9,807 nt of DNA from JAGLHV01 sp023132075 [NCBI: bacterium] (GTDB taxonomy: Bacteria > CBDUZB01 > JAGLHV01), in assembly GCA_023132075.1 (NCBI GenBank), contig JAGLYT010000037.1:1-9807 (forward strand), read 5' to 3'. How positions within the stretch are numbered: the stretch's first letter is position 1; each line of letters starts with the position of its first letter. This document shows, piece by piece, positions 1-9,807 of this stretch. Position numbers and translations under genes: made by a program. The notes under the pieces are model-generated. The model was not told the DNA's origin. It did not search any database and worked only from the letters and a program-made list of their open reading frames with translations.

Positions 1-1470
1 CCCCTCAACAACGGGGAATTAAAAAGAGGTATTTTTGCCGATTGGCTGGCTGTAGAATTAATCGGGGAAGGGGTAGAGGAGATTCATAAAGCAGTAATAG
101 AAGCTTATAAGAAAGGAGAAGATCGCGAATTTTTGACCAAAGGAGGGTTGGTACGAATTAATCTTACTGCCGGCAGAAAGGGGAGTCTAACGATAGCTCC
201 GGAGGCAGAATCTGTAATTAAGCAGTGTTATGATACTGCCCAGGAAGAGGGATTAAGTTTAGGTGAATATAAAAAGTTCAGGCAAATGGTAGAAGATCAG
301 CTTACTGCTCAACTTTTACGAAAGAGTGATGACCAGTATGCATTTGAGGAGGTGGATGGTCAAATAGAAAGTAAATGCATTGAGCCGGCTACAGGTGCCC
401 GGACTAATCAACGGGAACAAAGGATTCAGACTGCCATAGAAATTAAAGAATATAGAGCTGGAAATTTTAAGGGAGAAATCCTGGGAGAATCGCAGACTAA
501 TAATAGTCTTACTATTCACTCTATTATTGAACGAGCTGCTAAATCAGGCGGCCTGGTAGCGGGAATGAGCGGAACTTTTGGTGAGGTAGTAAAGGACGAA
601 TTAGTCAGGACAGCGGGTAAAGACCCGGCACTTATCGGAATAGAGGTTCCTAATCATTATGAAAGTGTAGTCATAGACGAGGGTTTTATTTCCGGGGACA
701 CGGATTCTTCTACTATGGAGAGTATTATTAATTGGATTACCCGGATGAAGAATGACAGAAAAGGGGCACCGATGATGATGGCTTTAAATTCGGATAATAC
801 TGCCCAGTGGATAATAGAACAGATTGAAACGGCAGTGAATCAGAAAAGGTTTGCTTATGGAAATATCAAAGTAATTGGCCCGGAGACTACCGTTAAAAAA
901 ATGGAAGAGATGGAGAGTAATCGTTCGGCGGACACCTTGTTTATTTATAAAGTTACTGCTGCGACTACTGATTCCCAGATAGAACATATTCGTATATATG
1001 GCGGACAGCCGGATACATTCCTTATCGGAGGAAAGACTATCGGACGGGGTTTCGATGCCGGTTTTAAGACCATTAATGTTGAAGAAATCGGTCAGCAGAT
1101 AAAAACGATGTTGTCCGAAGTAGGAATACCGGAGGAAAAAGCAGAAGGTATTATTTTATTAATGGAAGAAATGCTCAGTGATTTAAGAGCTGAGAGAAAT
1201 ATGGATATACGAAAAGAAAAAATTAAAAATATTCAAACATATTTTAGTACAGTGCGTAATTTGTTAAGAGAAGGGGGAGTTAGCCGGGAGGTATTAGCTG
1301 ATTTTGAAACAATGGAACGCCGGATATTTGCCCGGGAAGTATATGGTTTTCAGGAAGTTTATCAGGTGGATGATGTAACTATTGGAGAAGGCAAACAAAG
1401 AGAAGGACGGGTTGCCCGTCAAAGTGATGCCGGTTCGGTATGTAAATTAGTTTGTTATCAAAAAGGAGAA
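1..1470 (+). other. SecA-like module 1, C-terminal part (preprotein-binding remnant plus second nucleotide-binding fold), degenerate
   Basis: Residues 1-490 follow the order of the second half of SecA. LTAQ with the following DDQYAFE, residues 101-116, matches the SecA stretch around LRAHTLFQRDVDYIV. Residues 128-151 match the region that in SecA reads DEHTGRTMQGRRW...EAKEG, but GRRW is lost (TNQREQ here). GMSGTF at 188-193 matches SecA GMTGTA. EVPNH at 215-219 matches the VPTN strand. GRGFD at 348-352 matches motif V (AGRGTD). Residues 466-479, QREGRVARQSDAGS, match motif VI (QLRGRSGRQGDAGS), with both arginines R470 and R473 kept. The Walker A and B half must lie upstream. An extra helical stretch separates motifs V and VI. 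The loss of several conserved residues suggests a structural or regulatory rather than fully active ATPase. The SecA-family identity is well supported; activity is uncertain. Confidence 0.8.
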
Positions 1471-4400
1471 AGCAAGTTTGCCGATATGATAGATTTTGAA
1501 CGGGGGATAGAAGCTCGGTTGGGTGGAATACGGGAAATGATCCCTGTATTTAAATCTCTGGTAGCCGGAAAGATTAGTTTAAAAGAAGCATTTATTCAAT
1601 TTGCACAAACTTCCTTGGTGGATAGATTGAAAGGACTTGTATTGGGTGAAAATTCCGGTGAGGCGGCTTTTCGCAAAATGAATAGTTTGATAGAACAAAA
1701 CATACAACTTACTCAAGATCAAGGGGAAATAATAGAGAAAATTAAAGCCTCGGTCAAAGAGGAGGAAAAATCAGAATTAGAGCAACAATTAGAGGACATA
1801 AATGGAAAGATGGCAGGGATTAATAAGAAAGCAATTGCCCTTAAAATATATGCAGTGGATAGATTAGAAAGGAGTGATTCCCGCTACCGATTAGCCACCA
1901 GAAATCGCGGTCTTTTTGCTACAAGGGTTTATGAAAAAATAGAAAATTCCCGCAAGAATATTCTTAAAGCGGAAGTTACTGAATTAAATATTATTCAGCG
2001 CATTATTCAGGGTTTAAGGATAAGACAATTTTTTAGCCAGGAGGCTTTAGCCGGATTATTTATTAAAGAGGAAATTAAAAATTACCGCAAAATGGCTAAA
2101 GAGGCAGAAGACCCTGTTCAACGTACAGAATATTATCAACAAATGATTAGCCGTTTGGAAAAAGGATTAAATATAGAACTTGCCGGGTTGACAGAGGAAG
2201 CACTTTTATATAAAAAATTGAAAACTAATAAACTAGTGAATCTGATTACCCAACAGGTTATTGAGCAGCGAGGAGAGGAAAATATTTTTTATGTAAATGA
2301 ACAAACCAATACCGGTGTTTTGGATGATGCCTTTAATTCGGTTAAAGCCCAGTATATCAGCTATGCGGAAAGCCAGCAGCACAAAAATATGGCTGTTCCT
2401 CTGCTTCCGGATTTAATTAAGGTACAAATTTATAAACTAATGCTCACTTATCGTTATCAAAGGGATATGCGCAGGATTGTTTCCCGGATGAGCCAGACAA
2501 TGAAAGAAGGATTAGATAAAACCATAGAAACGGAAAGTTTGGACAAAAAGAATATGGAAGTAGATGTAAATTCAGTTATTAGGAATGTTTCCGCAGGGAT
2601 GACCGATGCTTTGAAAATTAGTGAATTAATGGCCGGTAAACGGGAACGCAGTTTAAAAACACGGGTAGGAAAGGGTATAGATAACGCGGTTAACTTGTTT
2701 GCTGATTTTATGTGGCGAGCCCGGGGAAGATTATTAGGTGAAATTAAAGAACGGGTAGTTACCGTAGCGGGAAAGCGTGAAATGGCGGCAGGTATACCCA
2801 TGGTAATGGGACAGGCAGGTAAATCACATACCGAAATGAAGGTTGCTAAATATATAGAGGTGAATACTGAAGAGAGGGAGCGAAAAGGAAAATGGATGAA
2901 AGAAAACAAAGTAACCCTGGATTTAAAAGCTGAGTTAGAAGCAGAGGGGGTTTTTGTAACTACAAAGGTGACAGAAGAAGTAGCAGAGGTAGCAGAAGAA
3001 AAACTAGTAGAAGTGAAAAAACCCGCAGAGGTGGTTACAGAAGTTCCTGGTGAGGTTCCCGATGAAGCCGTTCCTTTTGATACTAAAATAATTGCTCATT
3101 TTCAGGGAGAGACTGAACAAATAAACAAAGATTTGGAAAATATTCAAACAGCTATTGAGGGTTTAGATATAGAGGTAGAAACTGAAGAGGTTAATCAGGT
3201 TTACCAGCAATTAAGTGAAATTCGGACAAAGATTTCCAGCTTAAGGCGCGAATATAAAACTATGGAAGTACCGGAGGATTTAAGCAAAGAACTTCAGGCA
3301 TCGTTAGAAAAAGTAGGGACGGTTATCAATACGCTGGATAATCGAGCCATAAAATTAAATAATGAATTGGATGAAAAAACAGGAGCCCACATAATTCCTT
3401 CCCGTTTTGATATAAGGAATATTATTAGAAAAGTTGACCAAAGGGTTTTAACTTTTACTCAAAATCTTGCTTCAAGCAAATTAGGCAAACCGGTTTTTGT
3501 TCTTTCTTCAGGAGTGGTATTTGCGGCGTTTCTTTTTACTCTTTTTAATGGTTTATCATTCGGTATGCTGCCTATTTTAGCTCTGGTTTTTACTCCGGTG
3601 ACTATTCTGTTTTCTTTCTTTAAAAAGGAGTCGGGGACTACTTCTCCTGTTCAACCCAAAGAGGGAGTAGTGGGTAAAGTAATGAATATCAGTGAAAAAC
3701 TTAAAGCCATTATCGGTGGCCCTCCCGGAAAACCGGATTCCTGGACTAATCTTTTTATTTCAGGAATAGCTTTAATTGCTTTTGGGATTAGTTTGGGTTT
3801 TGGCCCGGCTGTTCTTTTAACTGCAGGAGCAGCTGCTTCTGCCGGAGTGAGTATGATGGGATTTGGTTTAAGCCCTATAATGTTATTTTTTATAACGGTT
3901 CCTATATTGCAGAAAACTAAATTACCGGATAAATTTGCCGATAAAATAGGTGGCCTGTTAGGTATCCGCAGAGCAAAAATAGAAAATAAAGAAGCCCTTG
4001 AAAATTTGAAATTACGGCTGGAAGAAAATATTCGCCAAAACAAAGAAAATGTGCCTTTACCAATGAAACATTTGGAAGAACAAGCAGGGATTATTGCTTT
4101 TGGGGAGGAAGAAATAGCAGAGGAGAAATTAACCCCTGCGATGAAGGAGCAGTATCAGAGGGTACTTAGTGGTTTGGAAAAATACTGGCGCAAGGTGGAA
4201 AGAGAATTATTGAAAGAAGCAATCAGCCAAAGTGAAAAAGATATTTCTCATGCGGCTGAGGTGAATAAAGCGGTAAACGATGCGGCTATTGCAACTTTTT
4301 GCGGATTAAGAGTGAATTTTGAAAGAGTTAAAGAAAAAAAGACATTACTACCCGATAATAAAAAATTAGAAGAATTAGCTTTACAAATAGCTGCAGCTGA

Positions 4401-7400
4401 ATTGGAAAAAGATGTTTCATCAGGGGCGGTAAATGCTCGAGTTGAGGAGGTTTTGCCATATTTAAAAGAGTATTGGTTTGCGGCTGAAGAGAAGGTCTTA
4501 ACCGATAAGATTGCTCAGGCTAAAGCAGATTTGAGTAATATAGTAAAAATAGCGGAAGAAGAGCGAGGGGAATTAATTGCTTCCAACGCAGTTCAACTTG
4601 CCTGGGCAGAAGAAAATGCACAAGCTTTAGAATTAATGCAACAACGACTTGAAGAAAACAGAAAAATTTCTCAGCTTACCCCCAGGCAGTTAGCAAAAAG
4701 GCAAAAAGCAATGTGGGCAAATGTTGCTGTTAAATTGGGATATCAACCGGGAGAAAAACTTTATCTCCAGATAAATAAAACTTTACAGCAATACTGGGTA
4801 ACTGTAGAAAAGGAATTATTGCAAACAGCCATTAAAGAAAGCCAGGAAGATATTACCCGTGCTTCTGCATTAAACAAAGCAGTAAATGATGTAGCTATTG
4901 CTGCTCTTTGCGGAATGAAAACAAAGTTAGAAAAAAGCAGGCAAAAAGAAATATTACCTTCTGCGGAACAATTACAAAAACTGGCCGTGGATATAGTTAA
5001 TGCTGAAGTTAAGAAAGATATTTCAGATGAGGCGAGAAATGCCCGGATTGCGGAGGTTCTGCAATATTTAAAAATGTACTGGTTTGAGGCAGAACAAAAG
5101 GTTTTGACAGAAAGAATTGCTCAGGCTAAGGGAGATTTGGCTAATATTGTATACATAGCTAAAGCCCCGCAGGAAGAGGTAATTGCTCAATATGCCGGTC
5201 AGCTGGCTCCGGAAAGATTAAAAGAAAAAAGAGAAAAATTAGCCGTTCATATCGAACAGGAATTAGCTGAGTGGTCCGTGCAAACACAACCTGCGGTTAT
5301 TTTAGAATCTCAAAAGCAATTAATTGCTTTAATAAACAAAGCAGAATATTTAACCGATGAAACAAAAGAAACTCATATTAACGCGATTAATCAAAAAGTT
5401 GCTGAATTAGAACAGGCAAGAACAATACAACCGGAGGAAGCGGTAGAAGTAGAAAAAGTAGTAACACCACCGGAAGTAGAAGCAAAACCGGTAGAGGAGG
5501 GAGTAAGTTTCGCACGGATTATAGGGGATGTTTTTGCCCGGACTTTACGCCCTTTTCAGGCATTACACTGGGGAATAGAAGAAGAGGTCGATGCAATTAT
5601 TGCCGGATTGGGATTAAAGCAAAGGAAAGTTCGCTTAACGCTAAAACAAAAGCAAAAAGTCATTAATGCTTTAAATTTATTAGAAGACGAATTTACGGAA
5701 TTGGAAGATAAAGAATTATCCGTTGCTATACAAAAAGCATTGGATGAGTTAATCAATAATCCGGAAAAGTTGAAAGTAATTGAAGGTAAATGGTTTACTA
5801 TGGATGAGTCCAATACGCTTAAAGCATGGGTAGGGGCATTTTTAGATGGGCCGGATGTATTTATTTTAAAAGCAATGATTAAAGGAGTGAGCGAAAAACA
5901 ATTAGCCGGGGCTATCTTACATGAGGTATTGGAAGTGCAGGGAGTAGGGCACGAGCAGGCAAAAGAAATTGTAGATACGTTTGTGGCGGGGGAGGAAGCT
6001 ATTGAAGAACGGATGGAAAAGATTGCAATGCTGGAGGCAGCAGGTTTTAAGACGACTAATCAAAGAATATTAAAGCTAGGTATAGAGGAAATAAAAGAAA
6101 GAATTACTTTTTTAAATGAATTAAAGGAATCAGGAGTAAAAGTATCGGTTGGTTGGTTAACCTATGCGCCGGCTGTACTGAAAGAGCGGGTAGAGGCACT
6201 AATAGAAATGGGTATTACTTATGCTCAGATTACTCCGGAGTTAATTATTATTCAGGGGTATATCCAACGGCTGGCTAAAGGAGAGGATGTTGAAAAACAG
6301 TTAAATGATAAGATTGCTAAGTTAAGTCAACAACCGGAAAATAAAGAGATAGTAAGTAAGTTAATGACCAGGATTGATGAAATAAAAGAAATGGTTGTGC
6401 CGGAAGAAGAAATTGTTGAGGTTGCCAAACCGAAAGAACTGAAAGAAGTTGAAGTAACCAAACCTGCAACAGAAGTAAAACCTCCGGTGAAAGAAGTTGC
6501 TAAACCCCCTGTAGAAAAAGGAGTGGAAGCCAGGCCGGAAGGAATTTTTACAAAAGTAAAAAAATTATTTATTGGTTTATATAAAGGAATTATTAAGGAG
6601 AAAAAAGTTTCTTCGGAATTTGAACGTTTGTTCTCTAAGGGACTGCCTCATATAGAGAAAGCGTTTGTAGATTTTAATAAAGCGCTTGCTTTAGCCGATA
6701 AGAAAGCAGGTATTGGGCCGCGTGAATTGTATGAGAGCCAGAAAGAAGGGGCGTTTTTATTAGCTGAATTGGAACAGTTTGTAAAACAAAAAACCAGCGG
6801 TGGAAAAACATTAATGTTAATTGCTGCTGCGTATTTAAGGGTATTTAAGGATAGAGGTAAAAATGAAGGGGTACTAATATCAACTAGTGAAGATACATTG
6901 GCAGAAAGAGATGCATTGGAAGCAGGTCGAATCCTTTCTTTATTGAACGTAATAGTAGGTTTAGTTAAATCAGGCAAAGATGGACAGCCGCAGGGATTTA
7001 TTTATAATGCAGAAAAAGACAGTTTTGAAGAAGTGAGTGAAAAAGACGTTTACCAGGCAGATGTGGTTTATGGAACTACAGACAGATTTGTGCATAGATA
7101 TGAAAATGACTTATTGGCCAGCGATATAAGCCAACGCGTTTTTATGACCAAGAATTGGTTTACTCTAATTGATGAAGTAGATCCGCCGTTAGATTATAAC
7201 AGAACTATGCCTTATAGTATTTCCGGAAAATTTGCTACAGAATCGGAACGCATTTTACATTATCAGTCAGAAGCAGAAAAAATGGTGAGTAATGTTTTCA
7301 AACTTAATCCAACTTATATAAATGTAATGAAAGATAAAAAAAGAGTAAAGCTGGAATCTAAAGGAAAAAAGCAGTTAATAAAAGAATTAGAAATGGTGGG

Positions 7401-9807
7401 TATTTTAGAGGGGTTAACGAAAGCAAAAAAGAAATTAGTCATAGCTGAATGGAAAAGATATGTAGAGATGTCTTTAACTGCACATTACTGTTATGAGACA
7501 GATAAAGATTATAAATTGGAACTGAATTTGAAGACTAAAAGAATGGAAGTAGTAATTATCGATGCTGAAAGTGGGAAACCTGTATACGGAAGAAGATGGC
7601 AGGGTGGACTGCATTCTGCACTTGAGGCAAAAGAAGGATTAATGATAGAGCCGGAAGCATTAACAATGTCAACTAAGAATATATCTAAATTTTTAAGTTT
7701 ATCTAATATGGTTGGATTTAGCGGAACAAGTGCAACTATAGATGAGGAAGTAATGGAAAATTTGTATGGTAAGAAAACGGTTGAGTTGGGAGGAGAGATG
7801 GAAACCTTAAGAAAAGAAATAAATCCGGTAAATTTATATAAGACTCAAAGAGAAAAAGACGAAGCAGTAGTCACTGAAATATTAAATTCTCACTTTGCTA
7901 CCGGCAATTCTTTTGCTTCCAAATGGATGGAAGACAATGAACCTGACTATGGTTATGAAGAAGGTATGCCGATATTAGTAAAAGTCGGGTTTACCAAAGA
8001 AGCGGAACAATTAAGGGGTAAATTGATTGCCGAAGCAAAAAGAACCGGTAGAAAATTAGATGAAAATAATATAAGGATTATGACCGCCAGTAATTATGAT
8101 GAAATTGATGATGTTATTGAACAAGCCGGCAAACCGGGAATGATTACCATAGTGACTCCTTTAGGGGGCAGGGGTATGGATATAAAATTAGCCGAAGAGG
8201 TAGCCGAATATGGAGGAATGTTAGCTATATCAACATCATTGGATGAATTTGAATCTTCGCTTATCCAGTTTCAGGGCAGGGTCGGACGAAAAGGAGCAGC
8301 TGGTGTATGGGAAGCTTTTTATTCATTACAGGATGAAGTATTTTTAACTTATAACGAACTTGTTCCCGAAGGAATGAATTGGCTTGAAAACGCATTTAGA
8401 AAGACTGAAACGGGAGAAGCGCTTCAAAAAGAAAAAACAACGTATGTGTTAACAGAGATACAAAAAGTAATTAAAAAACACCGTCTCTGGATGAATAAAC
8501 AGCAGGAGGAATATGCCGATTATATTGATAATTTAAGTGTCGAATATTTTGGTTTAAGAGAGAAAGTTTTAACAGGTGTAACAAATGATGCGGAAAGAAA
8601 ACATATGTTAACTGAAATGGATGGCTTGTTGGCTGAGTTTCTTACCGGAACAGAAAGTGTAAAAAGAGATTTATATGAAGCATTAATGGAATATGACTGG
8701 AAACAGCAGATACTACAAATGGATATGTATGTTGAATACATTGATAATGTAAATGAATCGTATAGAAACTTAATGACTAATATAGAAAAGATACACGGTT
8801 TTAAAGAAACAGGTATAGCGATTGAGAAGGAAAAGTTTAAAGTGGGGTATTTGCAGAATTTGGTAAAAGGTATTGCGATAACAGGGGCAGCAATAATAGG
8901 CTATTTCCTCTATCGGCAGATATTTGACATTATAGGCGGGCAGGGTTTAAGCGTATTATCAGACACAACAGTGGTTACGTCCGTTCTTACAGCATTTGGT
9001 TTAGGCCAGGTACCCTGGTTAATTTTAGGTGTAGTTGGTTTTAGCACATTGATTGCTACGCTATATGTGCGTAATAATTATTTAAATAGAGTGATGATGG
9101 CAGATAAAAGCGTAAGGAATCTGAGGTTGTTTTTAAAAGGCGTTCAAGAAGGCAATTTCTTAAACGTATTATCTAAATTTCTTTCACAGCAATTGTTAAA
9201 TTTAATTAGTTACCTTGGTCCGATGGCCGGCATTATTATGTATGTTGCAGGGACGGTTTTGCCTCCTTCTTTACTATTTGTATCGCCGGATCTGCTTATT
9301 ATGGCAGCAACGGTTTTAAGTATAGCAGGATTAGCGGCTAGTTTATTGGTTGTGGCAATGAATAGAGCAGCGTTAAAGGAAGGATACCCTATACCTGTAA
9401 CGAGAGCGGGGAGGTTAGTAAGGAGTAGTATAAGTAGTTTAGTTGCGGTGACTTTTATTGTATTTTTCTGGCAGGTGGGGGGAGTTGTTATAGGAGAGAT
9501 TTTTGGTGCAGGGATAGTCGGATTGGCTATTTTGTATGCAAACCGAATGACATCCAAAGAAAAGTCAGCAGATATAAAAATGATAATGTTAGGTATTATT
9601 TCCGGGGGTGTGGCGTTTATCGGATTATCATATTTAATATCTTTCTATGGAATAATTGCTGGTTTAATTCCTATGGCATTAGTTATGTTAGTACCTTTTG
9701 TAATAAGTGGCATTTTATATTTTCTTGCCCAATATGATTTGACTAAAAAATTGGTTCCGATAAAAGTGAAAGTAGAGGAAAAACCTGCTCCAATTAAGAA
9801 AGCTATG
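1..9807 (+). CDS. Internal fragment of a giant SecA-like, multi-pass membrane protein (no start or stop in window)
   Basis: Frame 1 is open for all 3,269 codons; I translated every line and found no TAA, TAG or TGA. The first codon is Pro and the last Met, so neither end is native. The chain contains, in order, a partial SecA-like module, a charged helical region, a membrane-helix cluster, a tandem helical repeat, a second helical domain, a near-complete SecA-like ATPase and a second membrane-helix cluster, joined by Pro/Val/Glu/Lys linkers. Ordinary SecA is about 800-1,000 residues, so this is far beyond the family. Published giant genes of Omnitrophota typically combine divergent SecA-like helicase domains with many membrane segments, which fits well. 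Only seven cysteines are present. No frameshift is seen. Function beyond a membrane-anchored ATPase is unknown. It could be several fused ancestral genes, but no internal stop or spacer separates them. Confidence 0.97.
1093..1350 (+). other. Helical insertion between SecA motifs V and VI of module 1
   Basis: Residues 365-450 are Glu/Lys/Arg-rich and look continuously helical (for example the LLMEEMLSDLRAERN stretch at 386-400). They lie between GRGFD (348-352) and the motif VI arginines (470, 473). That spacing is about 115 residues, longer than in ordinary SecA. This is an insertion in, or replacement of, the strand that normally carries the GTERHESRR segment; GFQEVYQVDD at 449-458 probably corresponds to the recovered strand. 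Confidence 0.45.
1471..2970 (+). other. Long charged helical region following SecA-like module 1
   Basis: Residues 491-990 are Glu/Lys/Arg/Gln-rich with regular hydrophobic spacing, few prolines and no hydrophobic run long enough for a membrane helix. The region occupies the place of the helical scaffold and wing domains of SecA but is far longer, and I cannot align it convincingly to them. Parts such as 561-605 look like coiled coil. A P-loop-like GQAGKS lies at 937-942. The region probably folds as helical bundles or a stalk on the cytoplasmic side. No family is recognised. Confidence 0.55.
2971..3081 (+). other. Interdomain linker 1, Val/Glu/Pro-rich
   Basis: Residues 991-1027 are dominated by V, E, A, K and P, with repeated EV(A/V/P) and KKPAEV-type units. 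Such low-complexity acidic stretches are expected to be extended and flexible. It separates the helical region that follows SecA-like module 1 from the coiled-coil stalk leading into the membrane. The same composition recurs at three later module boundaries. Confidence 0.65.
3082..3480 (+). other. Coiled-coil-like stalk before membrane cluster 1
   Basis: Residues 1028-1160 contain long runs with heptad-like spacing of I/L/V and many E, K, Q and N residues (for example 1036-1058, 1064-1085 and 1098-1126). One break at MEVPED (1087-1092) suggests two antiparallel helices. The stretch ends in basic residues just ahead of the first membrane helix, consistent with a cytoplasmic location. No enzymatic motif is visible. 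Confidence 0.5.
3490..3909 (+). other. Membrane-helix cluster 1 (about four helices, two hairpins)
   Basis: Hydrophobic stretches lie at residues 1164-1182, 1187-1207, 1251-1270 and 1271-1303; the last is long and could hold more than one helix. The first pair is separated by only NGLSF (1183-1187). The 42-residue loop between the pairs is rich in lysine and has KK at 1208-1209. The flanks, K1160/K1163 before and QKTK (1304-1307) after, are also basic. By the positive-inside rule the long loops face the cytoplasm and only short turns are outside. An even helix count would keep the SecA-like modules on both sides in the cytoplasm. Confidence 0.8.
3994..4581 (+). repeat. Tandem helical repeat, copy A
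   Basis: Residues 1332-1527. This is the first of two homologous units in direct tandem. Shared landmarks with copy B are RLEEN (1339-1343), the YW pair (1395-1396), NKAVND (1422-1427) with FCG just after, the KDVS..A..AR block, YWF (1491-1493), and KVLT..IAQAK.DL.NIV ending near 1516. The unit is helical, charged and cytoplasmic by its position after membrane cluster 1. It contains one of the chain's seven cysteines (C1434), conserved in copy B. No known family is recognised. Confidence 0.85.
4624..5187 (+). repeat. Tandem helical repeat, copy B
   Basis: Residues 1542-1729. The unit aligns with copy A over its whole length. About half of the roughly 145 positions from Y1588 onward are identical in my hand alignment, with a single-residue gap; the leading part is weaker and needs a larger gap. 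Shared landmarks are RLEEN (1549-1553), YW (1598-1599), NKAVND (1625-1630), LCG (1636-1638), YWF (1693-1695) and IAQAKGDL.NIV. Similarity continues weakly past the unit (IAxxAxQLA follows both copies), hinting at a worn third unit after it. Confidence 0.85.
5188..5424 (+). other. Helical segment after the tandem repeats, possible decayed third unit
   Basis: Residues 1730-1808 are charged and helical. The first few residues (QYAGQLA) match the SNAVQLA that follows copy A, but the RLEEN, YW and NKAVND landmarks are absent. It is therefore either a truncated or diverged third repeat or an unrelated helical pair. It ends at the start of linker 2. Confidence 0.35.
5425..5505 (+). other. Interdomain linker 2, Glu/Val/Pro-rich
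   Basis: Residues 1809-1835 have the same composition as the other linkers (VEVEKVV, PPEVEAKPVEE). It marks the end of the tandem-repeat module. An amphipathic segment starting at FARIIGDVFARTLRPF (1838-1852) follows immediately. Confidence 0.65.
5917..5967 (+). other. HExxE...GHE motif (possible remnant metal site)
   Basis: Residues 1973-1989 hold H1974-E1975-x-x-E1978, then H1984-E1985 in a GVGHEQAKE context. Two His-Glu pairs ten residues apart on predicted helices could bind a metal. Classical zinc peptidases need HExxH plus a third ligand, which I do not see, so protease activity should not be assumed. Confidence 0.3.
5998..6255 (+). repeat. Three mTERF-like ~30-residue helical repeats
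   Basis: Units start near residues 2001 (EERMEKIAMLEAAGF), 2031 (IKERITFLNELKESG) and 2060 (LKERVEALIEMGI). The conserved arginines are at 2004, 2034 and 2063, about 30 residues apart. The pattern ERΦxxLxxxG followed by a Pro-containing helix (YAPAV, ITPEL) matches the mTERF helical repeat. In eukaryotes mTERF proteins bind nucleic acid; in this context a protein-binding superhelix is as likely. Confidence 0.45.
6391..6543 (+). other. Interdomain linker 3, Glu/Val/Lys/Pro-rich with short KP repeats
   Basis: Residues 2131-2181 carry irregular repeats of the form EVAKP, EVTKP, EVKPP, EVAKPP. This is the longest of the linkers and lies immediately upstream of SecA-like module 2. It is expected to be an extended, flexible tether. 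Confidence 0.7.
6790..6813 (+). other. Walker A (motif I) of SecA-like module 2
   Basis: Residues 2264-2271 read KTSGGKTL, matching the SecA consensus KTGEGKTL. Lys2269 and Thr2270 should contact the nucleotide phosphates and Mg2+. An aromatic/Leu-rich helix lies just upstream (AFLLAELEQF), followed by the usual Ala-rich helix (AAAYLRV). Confidence 0.9.
7165..7182 (+). other. Walker B / DEVD (motif II) of SecA-like module 2
   Basis: Residues 2389-2394 read LIDEVD, identical in its core to SecA IDEVD. Glu2392 is the expected catalytic base. It lies 123 residues after the Walker A lysine, a plausible SecA spacing. Confidence 0.9.
8581..8859 (+). other. Helical connector between SecA-like module 2 and membrane cluster 2
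   Basis: Residues 2861-2953 are charged helices (for example ERKHMLTEMDGLLAEF and EYDWKQQILQMDM). They continue the scaffold-like helix of module 2 and run into basic residues (K2943, K2945, K2947, K2956) ahead of the first membrane helix. It is much shorter than the region after module 1. No SEC-C zinc motif is present. It probably couples the ATPase to the membrane part. Confidence 0.5.
8860..9729 (+). other. Membrane-helix cluster 2 (about eight helices, four hairpins)
   Basis: Hydrophobic helices lie near residues 2954-2971, 3004-3023, 3065-3088, 3097-3120, 3145-3161, 3164-3180, 3194-3215 and 3217-3243. Basic loops lie at 3024-3062 (VRNNYLNR...KSVRNLR), 3121-3144 and 3181-3193, and KK follows at 3249-3250. 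All of these should be cytoplasmic by the positive-inside rule. The intervening turns are short and poorly charged, apart from the roughly 30-residue turn of the first hairpin. There is no resemblance I can name to SecY or a transporter family. It probably anchors module 2, and may form a channel-like or membrane-shaping element (speculation). Confidence 0.85.
9751..9807 (+). other. Start of interdomain linker 4, Val/Lys/Glu/Pro-rich, cut by window end
   Basis: Residues 3251-3269 (LVPIKVKVEEKPAPIKK...) have the same composition as the three earlier linkers. This predicts that another folded module follows downstream rather than the C-terminus of the protein. Confidence 0.55.

Follow-up and report, generated by a model that had tools for sequence, protein, structure and literature searches.

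An Omnitrophota-type giant gene with two divergent SecA modules in a separate bacterial lineage, and a tentative model for export of its own product

The stretch of DNA analyzed here (the window) is the whole of contig G000:C301, 9,807 bp in length, from a 1.87 Mb genome (G000) that is held in 389 contigs and is 86.7% complete. The first-pass annotation had described it as the interior of one giant gene with 3,269 sense codons and no stop, and this description was borne out, both by the open frame itself and by a longer homologue in the same genus. Frame +1 runs through all 9807 bases with 0 stops, and every 1.2 kb block of it is stop-free; the other five frames contain 96-363 stops each. Approximately 261 stops are expected from the base composition of the window, and zero stops would occur by chance with a probability of about 10^-118. 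GC contents at codon positions 1, 2, and 3 are 0.50, 0.33, and 0.30, respectively. Since the window is a complete contig, the first in-frame stops fall outside the assembled sequence. No tandem repeats were found in the window, and its promoter-like sites (13, against 27.4 in shuffles) and terminator-like sites (11, against 6.4 in shuffles, sd 2.4) were not counted as evidence. The features of the window are collected in Table 1.

Table 1. Features along the window, in nucleotide positions of the forward sequence.
Feature	Position	Strand	Details
Interior of the open reading frame	1..9807	+	3269 codons, stop at neither end; entire contig G000:C301
C-terminal part of divergent SecA module 1	7..1620	+	residues 3-540; alignment-model match; first part missing upstream
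Region without significant family match, Glu/Val/Pro-rich stretch	1621..3489	+	conserved with G002:C178
Four predicted membrane segments in two hairpins	3490..3909	+	residues 1164-1207 and 1255-1303; simple hydropathy
Two degenerate direct repeats	4361-4601 and 4967-5207 (4361..5207)	+	70% identical
Recurring HExLE module	5512..6405	+	residues 1838-2135; HEVLEVQGVGH at residues 1974-1984
Pro/Lys/Glu/Val-rich linker	6406..6573	+	window and G001:C48 part about here
Divergent SecA module 2	6574..8700	+	residues 2192-2900; Pfam, NCBIfam, and PDB sequence comparison
Membrane block after SecA module 2	8857..9705	+	residues 2953-3235; 6 clear and 2 marginal segments
Lys/Pro/Val-rich stretch	9706..9807	+	runs off the contig

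At its 5' end the window holds part of a divergent SecA module (module 1), with the motifs GMSGT at residue 188, GRGFD at 348, and GRVARQ at 469. Its score is not independent, because the alignment model used includes the homologue G002:C178, and Pfam alone reported nothing over this region. The annotation had held that the first half of module 1 was missing, which agrees with G002:C178, where a SecA_DEAD match, at roughly residues 962-1147 of the frame, immediately precedes the part aligned with the window. Simple hydropathy predicts 10 membrane segments in the window as a whole. Lysine and arginine (K/R) are found on the outer flanks of the two hairpins and in the loop that separates them, with 0 in both short loops. 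No sugar or adhesion family was matched in the window by Pfam.

The HExLE module recurs in two places in G002:C178 and in G001:C48, and its second half only is found in G002:C128. The pattern H-E-x-L-E-x2-G-x2-H is invariant in the two sequences aligned. A structure model of the module had a pLDDT of 64 overall and above 80 in the second half only, which was modeled as all-helical, and the best match in a PDB fold search with this model had an E value of 0.4, short of the 0.001 threshold. From about residue 2125 onward the window departs from G001:C48, the window continuing into SecA module 2 and G001:C48 into a region with HATPase_c; this swap downstream of the HExLE module suggests a possible in-frame exchange of modules. 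In G001:C48 (L038), a histidine-kinase-type ATPase domain occupies amino acids 763-885, downstream of the shared HExLE module.

SecA module 2 is matched by the Pfam families SecA_DEAD (E 1.9e-22; score 80.3, gathering threshold 24.6), SecA_PP_bind (2.2e-11; 44.8, 23.5), and P-loop_SecA (2e-9; 37.8, 27), all above their gathering thresholds, and comparison with SecA chains in the PDB gave E values down to 3.4e-39. The module scores below every NCBIfam SecA cut-off (best, 214 bits vs 862). Its motifs include the Walker A core SGGKT (residues 2266-2270), LIDEVD (2389), GTSAT (2575), GRGMDIKL (2723), and GRVGRKG (2759). Given that the Walker A core, DEVD, GTS, GRGMD, and GRVGR are recognizable, we infer that module 2 is an active ATPase; the altered motifs leave doubt, with SGGKT in place of the GEGKT of ordinary SecA and with DETD in the homologous Omnitrophota record L104. 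Ordinary SecA and SecY are present separately in each of the three genomes of the genus (the SecA of G000 is split over C370 and C110), and since these genomes keep their own ordinary SecA and SecY, module 2 does not appear to be the housekeeping motor.

The membrane block that follows module 2 showed no convincing Pfam family and no detectable channel, and hhalign of the block against the SecY domain of G002:C128 gave no meaningful match. A structure model of residues 2190-3269, covering SecA module 2 and the block, was unusable (pLDDT 38). K/R alternation in the block is not clean, whether it is counted with 6 or 9 segments, and the block of L104 likewise lacks a clean alternation. In the second Omnitrophota record, L103, K/R counts are 5, 8, 4, 5, and 6 for loops on the SecA side and 0, 0, 0, 0, and, in the last, 4 for those opposite. 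This pattern places the SecA of L103 on the predicted cytoplasmic side.

The host phylum comprises three genomes in the collection used (G000, G001, and G002), all of one genus. In G002, contig C178 (40,111 bp) carries a 7631-codon frame that has a closed 5' side and is still open where the contig stops. Residues 2-1807 of the window align with residues 1167-2927 of this frame at 49% identity, and the frame begins 1,166 codons before the window's equivalent, consistent with the earlier claim that the gene is longer than the window. The homologous frame measures 22.9 kb and is still open; the window contig measures 9.8 kb and is open at both ends. Nucleotide identities between the window and G002 at codon positions 1, 2, and 3 (0.678, 0.764, and 0.528 over 1435 codons) indicate that selection acts on the protein. 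The start of the G002:C178 giant gene is also carried by G001:C386 (1102 codons, 68% identical over 1095 columns), where the DNA upstream of the start holds sequence related to the 4244-codon frame of G002 (39%, 573 columns) and a 360-codon frame that matches the 376-codon frame of G002 by eye. In G002:C178 this 4244-codon frame (3013-15744) is complete, lies just 5' of the giant gene, and has a weak DEAD match only. Two further contigs of the relatives, G001:C48 (1539 codons) and G002:C128 (2429 codons), are open end to end. An earlier contig scan with window residues 1-1800 as the query had found no relative.

In both G001 and G002, the N-terminus of the giant gene product is hydrophobic and signal-like. 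No second membrane segment is predicted before SecA module 1 at a hydropathy threshold of 1.6, and a threshold of 1.5 adds one segment only, within SecA module 1 itself. An N-terminus that resembles an export signal (G001:C386, G002:C178) would leave ATPase module 1 outside, a compartment devoid of ATP, and this is unexplained. The public label of the G002 record (L111, JAUVLC010000008.1), "Clostridia bacterium isolate CSMAG_496", conflicts with the collection, which groups its genome in the one-genus phylum, and the record is perhaps mislabeled; G001 is labeled "bacterium isolate RS_2_16".

Five more contigs of G000 are open end to end: C1 (11,769 codons), C13 (4548), C168 (3569), C387 (2105), and C91 (1275). 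With the window, these fully open contigs sum to 26,535 codons, a list that is possibly incomplete as the five were retrieved with a single part of G002:C178 as the query. Modules recur among the five or between them and G002:C178, and no module common to them and the window was found at the threshold used. Among nine G000 contigs there were no exact end overlaps of 15-250 bases, and no 21-mers were common to the window and the other eight. The 35.3 kb contig C1 (L089/L090, 1-35308) is a single frame with methyltransferase-like domains and many membrane segments. Contigs C13 (L094), C168 (L093), and C387 (L092) hold GH130, iPGM_N, GNAT, GH15, alpha/beta hydrolase, and methyltransferase-like domains, an F420/NADP oxidoreductase-like domain also occurs among the open sister contigs, and no family was matched in C91 (L091). 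Of the 53 membrane-segment clusters in ten frames from this genus, 19 consist of exactly two segments, and all 19 lie outside the window. These 19 sister-contig hairpins have 105 K/R in 456 flank residues vs 3 in 268 loop residues, a pattern with which the two hairpins of the window agree.

Giant genes of this sort are best known from Omnitrophota, and a 2023 preprint by West-Roberts et al. is reported to describe most full-length giant genes as encoding membrane regions and divergent SecA helicase domains. The window very probably comes from the interior of one of these Omnitrophota-type giant genes. SecA module 2 and its membrane block, covering the last 1080 residues of the window, are collinear with the Omnitrophota records L103 and L104 at 27-28% identity, and by this comparison the SecA-plus-membrane-block unit is homologous between the window and Omnitrophota giant genes. 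The remaining regions of the window had no match at E 1e-4 in the examined parts of the Omnitrophota records. The family extends beyond Omnitrophota. The first-pass annotation was right about the giant gene and the truncated module 1; its suggestion of Omnitrophota as the source did not hold, as the collection places the host in its own one-genus phylum and G286 (Candidatus Omnitrophota, JAHJHP010000089.1) is related to it at the domain level only.

A second link within the family is an N-terminal domain of approximately 530 amino acids (G286 vs G001, E 1e-49). A scan with this domain returned 11 records: seven from Omnitrophota, two from the host genus (G001, G002), and two from Elusimicrobia. 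No match was found in the window's own genome, where the domain is perhaps unassembled, and the domain of the homologues gave no PDB sequence match up to E 1 and no Pfam match below 0.05. The frame that carries it is open at the end of the available DNA in 8 of the 11 records and closed in the other three (L106 at 1923, L112 at 1980, and L113 at 267 codons). The last two are from Elusimicrobia, where relatives of the N-terminal domain thus sit in frames of 1980 and 267 codons. In the parts examined, a SecA module was seen in four of the 11 records (L103, L104, L111, and the start of one in L110), including two of the seven from Omnitrophota (L103, L104) and none of the other five. Record L107 has 3905 open codons without a SecA module, and the L106 frame closes without one.

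Among the matches listed from a search of 386 genomes with the SecA module alignment, frames of at least 3000 codons were found in G000, G002, and G286; G047 has a SecA frame of 2075 codons. Among 237 genomes of the phylum of G286, at least 11 encode such a SecA module within a frame of 3000 codons or longer. The G286 frame with the SecA module spans 10,168 codons, and a Pfam scan that excluded about 200 residues at the frame end found one SecA, followed by glycoamylase-like, DUF3131, and peptidoglycan-binding domains. In a SecA tree with 20 rows, seven giant-gene modules and 13 ordinary SecA separated at one branch (99/97), and module 2 of the window joined four modules from the phylum of G286 or the Omnitrophota records (92/92); this tree has very long branches that meet, on which the tool gave a warning. 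The 13 ordinary rows are those of 31 loci that passed the motif filter, which L058 and L059 of this genus did not pass; the giant loci L115 and L118 were left out by the same filter. Of the window's two modules, the tree includes module 2.

One relative has both SecY and SecA in a single open frame. Contig G002:C128 (L039, 2-7288) encodes, in one 2429-codon open frame, a near-complete SecY domain (amino acids 206-514; PF00344 positions 1-305 of 306, E 2.6e-47) and then a divergent SecA. The N-terminal-most residues on this contig duplicate the final part of the HExLE module of the window. The SecY domain scored 138 bits against the SecY equivalog, for which the cut-off is 253.6. It keeps the loop IPGxxPGExT and has Met where three ordinary SecY have Arg, a position essential for SecA action in E. 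coli; the substitution suggests altered function. An ordinary SecY, on its own, and an ordinary SecA are also present in G002. The SecY-SecA frame rests on this one contig, which has no closed end. G000 and G001 showed no SecY beyond the ordinary one, and in 15 Omnitrophota with giant-type SecA, SecY was found in none of the giant frames at E 1e-5 and occurred as stand-alone genes of 358-478 codons only.

As the best explanation of the locus as a whole, to which we give a probability of roughly 45%, we propose that the window encodes part of a modular, membrane-anchored giant protein of the Omnitrophota kind with a putative Sec-type motor for export in cis. The product would be a giant protein with two divergent SecA modules, and its gene an in-frame mosaic whose modules may have been duplicated and exchanged. 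SecA module 2 would face the cytoplasm, still use ATP, and work beside its own membrane block, and it would help move later parts of the same chain across the membrane; in one homologue these parts would be the sugar-active and peptidoglycan-binding domains. Such a motor acting beside its own block is favored by L103, in which nine segments would put the following sugar-active and peptidoglycan-binding region outside. Since the window's own membrane block has no clean side-of-membrane signal, our confidence in cis export is slightly lowered, and taken on its own the mechanism by module 2 seems to us somewhat doubtful. It is opposed by the signal-like N-terminus, which would put module 1 outside, by the lack of a detectable channel in the window, and by the enzyme-like modules of the sister contigs, which look cytoplasmic and are unexplained by a role in export. 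Also against it, SecA is not universal in the giant-gene family, as judged from the parts of the records examined. A stronger version, in which the giant genes would form a self-contained export machine with Sec motors and, in at least one lineage, SecY, exporting the later domains of their own chain, is unlikely.

The published interpretation of Omnitrophota giant ORFs (PMC10066038; PMC12057145) points to a giant surface weapon or coat, mainly extracellular and serving adhesion and wall digestion in predation, in which the SecA modules would be non-motor relics. The domains that follow the SecA unit in G286, the signal-like N-terminus of the homologues, and the altered SecA motifs would all fit such a protein, and we consider it a serious competitor that we nonetheless lean against: motor motifs are still recognizable in module 2 of the window and in L103, the K/R pattern assigns the SecA of L103 and the surroundings of the 19 sister-contig hairpins to the cytoplasmic side, and the window has no sugar or adhesion family. 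The positive hairpin flanks would also suit a membrane-bound cytoplasmic hub, that is, a chain with many enzyme-like modules that is anchored to the inner membrane by hairpins and is not exported. Methyltransferase, iPGM_N, GNAT, GH130, GH15, and F420/NADP oxidoreductase-like domains in the open sister contigs speak for this reading. It is not established that those contigs are part of the window's gene, no window module was matched there, and the peptidoglycan-binding and signal-like parts of the homologues point outward, which makes a hub distinctly improbable.

The same hairpins bear on whether the product could be a polyprotein that is cut into many membrane proteins at internal sites resembling those of signal peptidase. 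An A-x-A motif follows the first segment in 8 of 19 hairpins vs 0 of 19 after the second; in 2000 shuffles the mean is 3.1, and the fraction with 8 or more is 0.001. Several sites resemble ASAQPDV (hairpins in G000:C1, C13, C168, G002:C178, and G001:C48), and the window's own pair of short loops lies outside the 19; one of them, TAGAAASAGVS, has an A-x-A and the other does not. However, several hairpins look like copies of one module and are therefore not independent, and the looser motif [AVSTG]xA shows no excess (11 observed vs 10.2 expected), so that we regard cleavage of this kind as quite remote. Least probable of all is an artefact of assembly or gene calling, such as a chimeric contig or missed stops. 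The genome is fragmented, the GC content of the window is 0.378, compared with 0.312-0.328 for its five fully open sister contigs, and the window parts from G001:C48 after about residue 2125, but a collinear homologous frame of 7631 codons exists in G002 with a GC content of about 0.38 at the equivalent place, no 15-mer able to cause a false join is duplicated within the window, and SecA module 2 and its block are collinear in two Omnitrophota records.

The locus ties the problem of how the largest bacterial proteins are produced, exported or anchored, and used to the Sec machinery. A motor-plus-membrane unit is common to Omnitrophota and a separate lineage of small size, and SecY is added in one relative, which makes cis export a testable proposal for a giant-gene family that is not confined to Omnitrophota. 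The present analysis adds the occurrence outside Omnitrophota, the common N-terminal domain, the common SecA-plus-membrane unit, and the SecY-SecA frame. The giant ORFs of Omnitrophota have been published (Seymour et al. 2023, PMC10066038), with a threshold of more than 20 kb and, in the main text, no occurrence of the word SecA, and PMC12057145 states, citing the West-Roberts et al. preprint, that giant genes are common in Omnitrophota, Elusimicrobia, and CG03. A literature search for SecA in giant proteins found nothing on point. For natural SecY-SecA fusions, the open-licence PMC literature yielded an engineered one (PMC5562318), a result that does not establish their absence.

The locus resembles the Omnitrophota giant ORFs in its very long frame, its membrane segments, its divergent SecA followed by a membrane block, its few recognizable domains, and the N-terminal domain present in its same-genus homologues. 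It differs from them in that its host lies outside Omnitrophota in the collection used, that two SecA modules occur in one frame, compared with one by Pfam in G286, and that one relative (G002) has SecY in frame. Like SecA and SecA2 ATPases, module 2 has DEAD-like, preprotein-crosslinking, and P-loop regions with most ATPase motifs recognizable; unlike them, it is embedded in a giant chain, scores far below the family cut-offs, and coexists with a separate ordinary SecA in the genome. The engineered SecY-SecA fusion (PMC5562318) joins SecY and SecA on one chain, as does G002:C128, but it is man-made, whereas the SecY and SecA of G002:C128 are both divergent and lie in an open frame with further modules.
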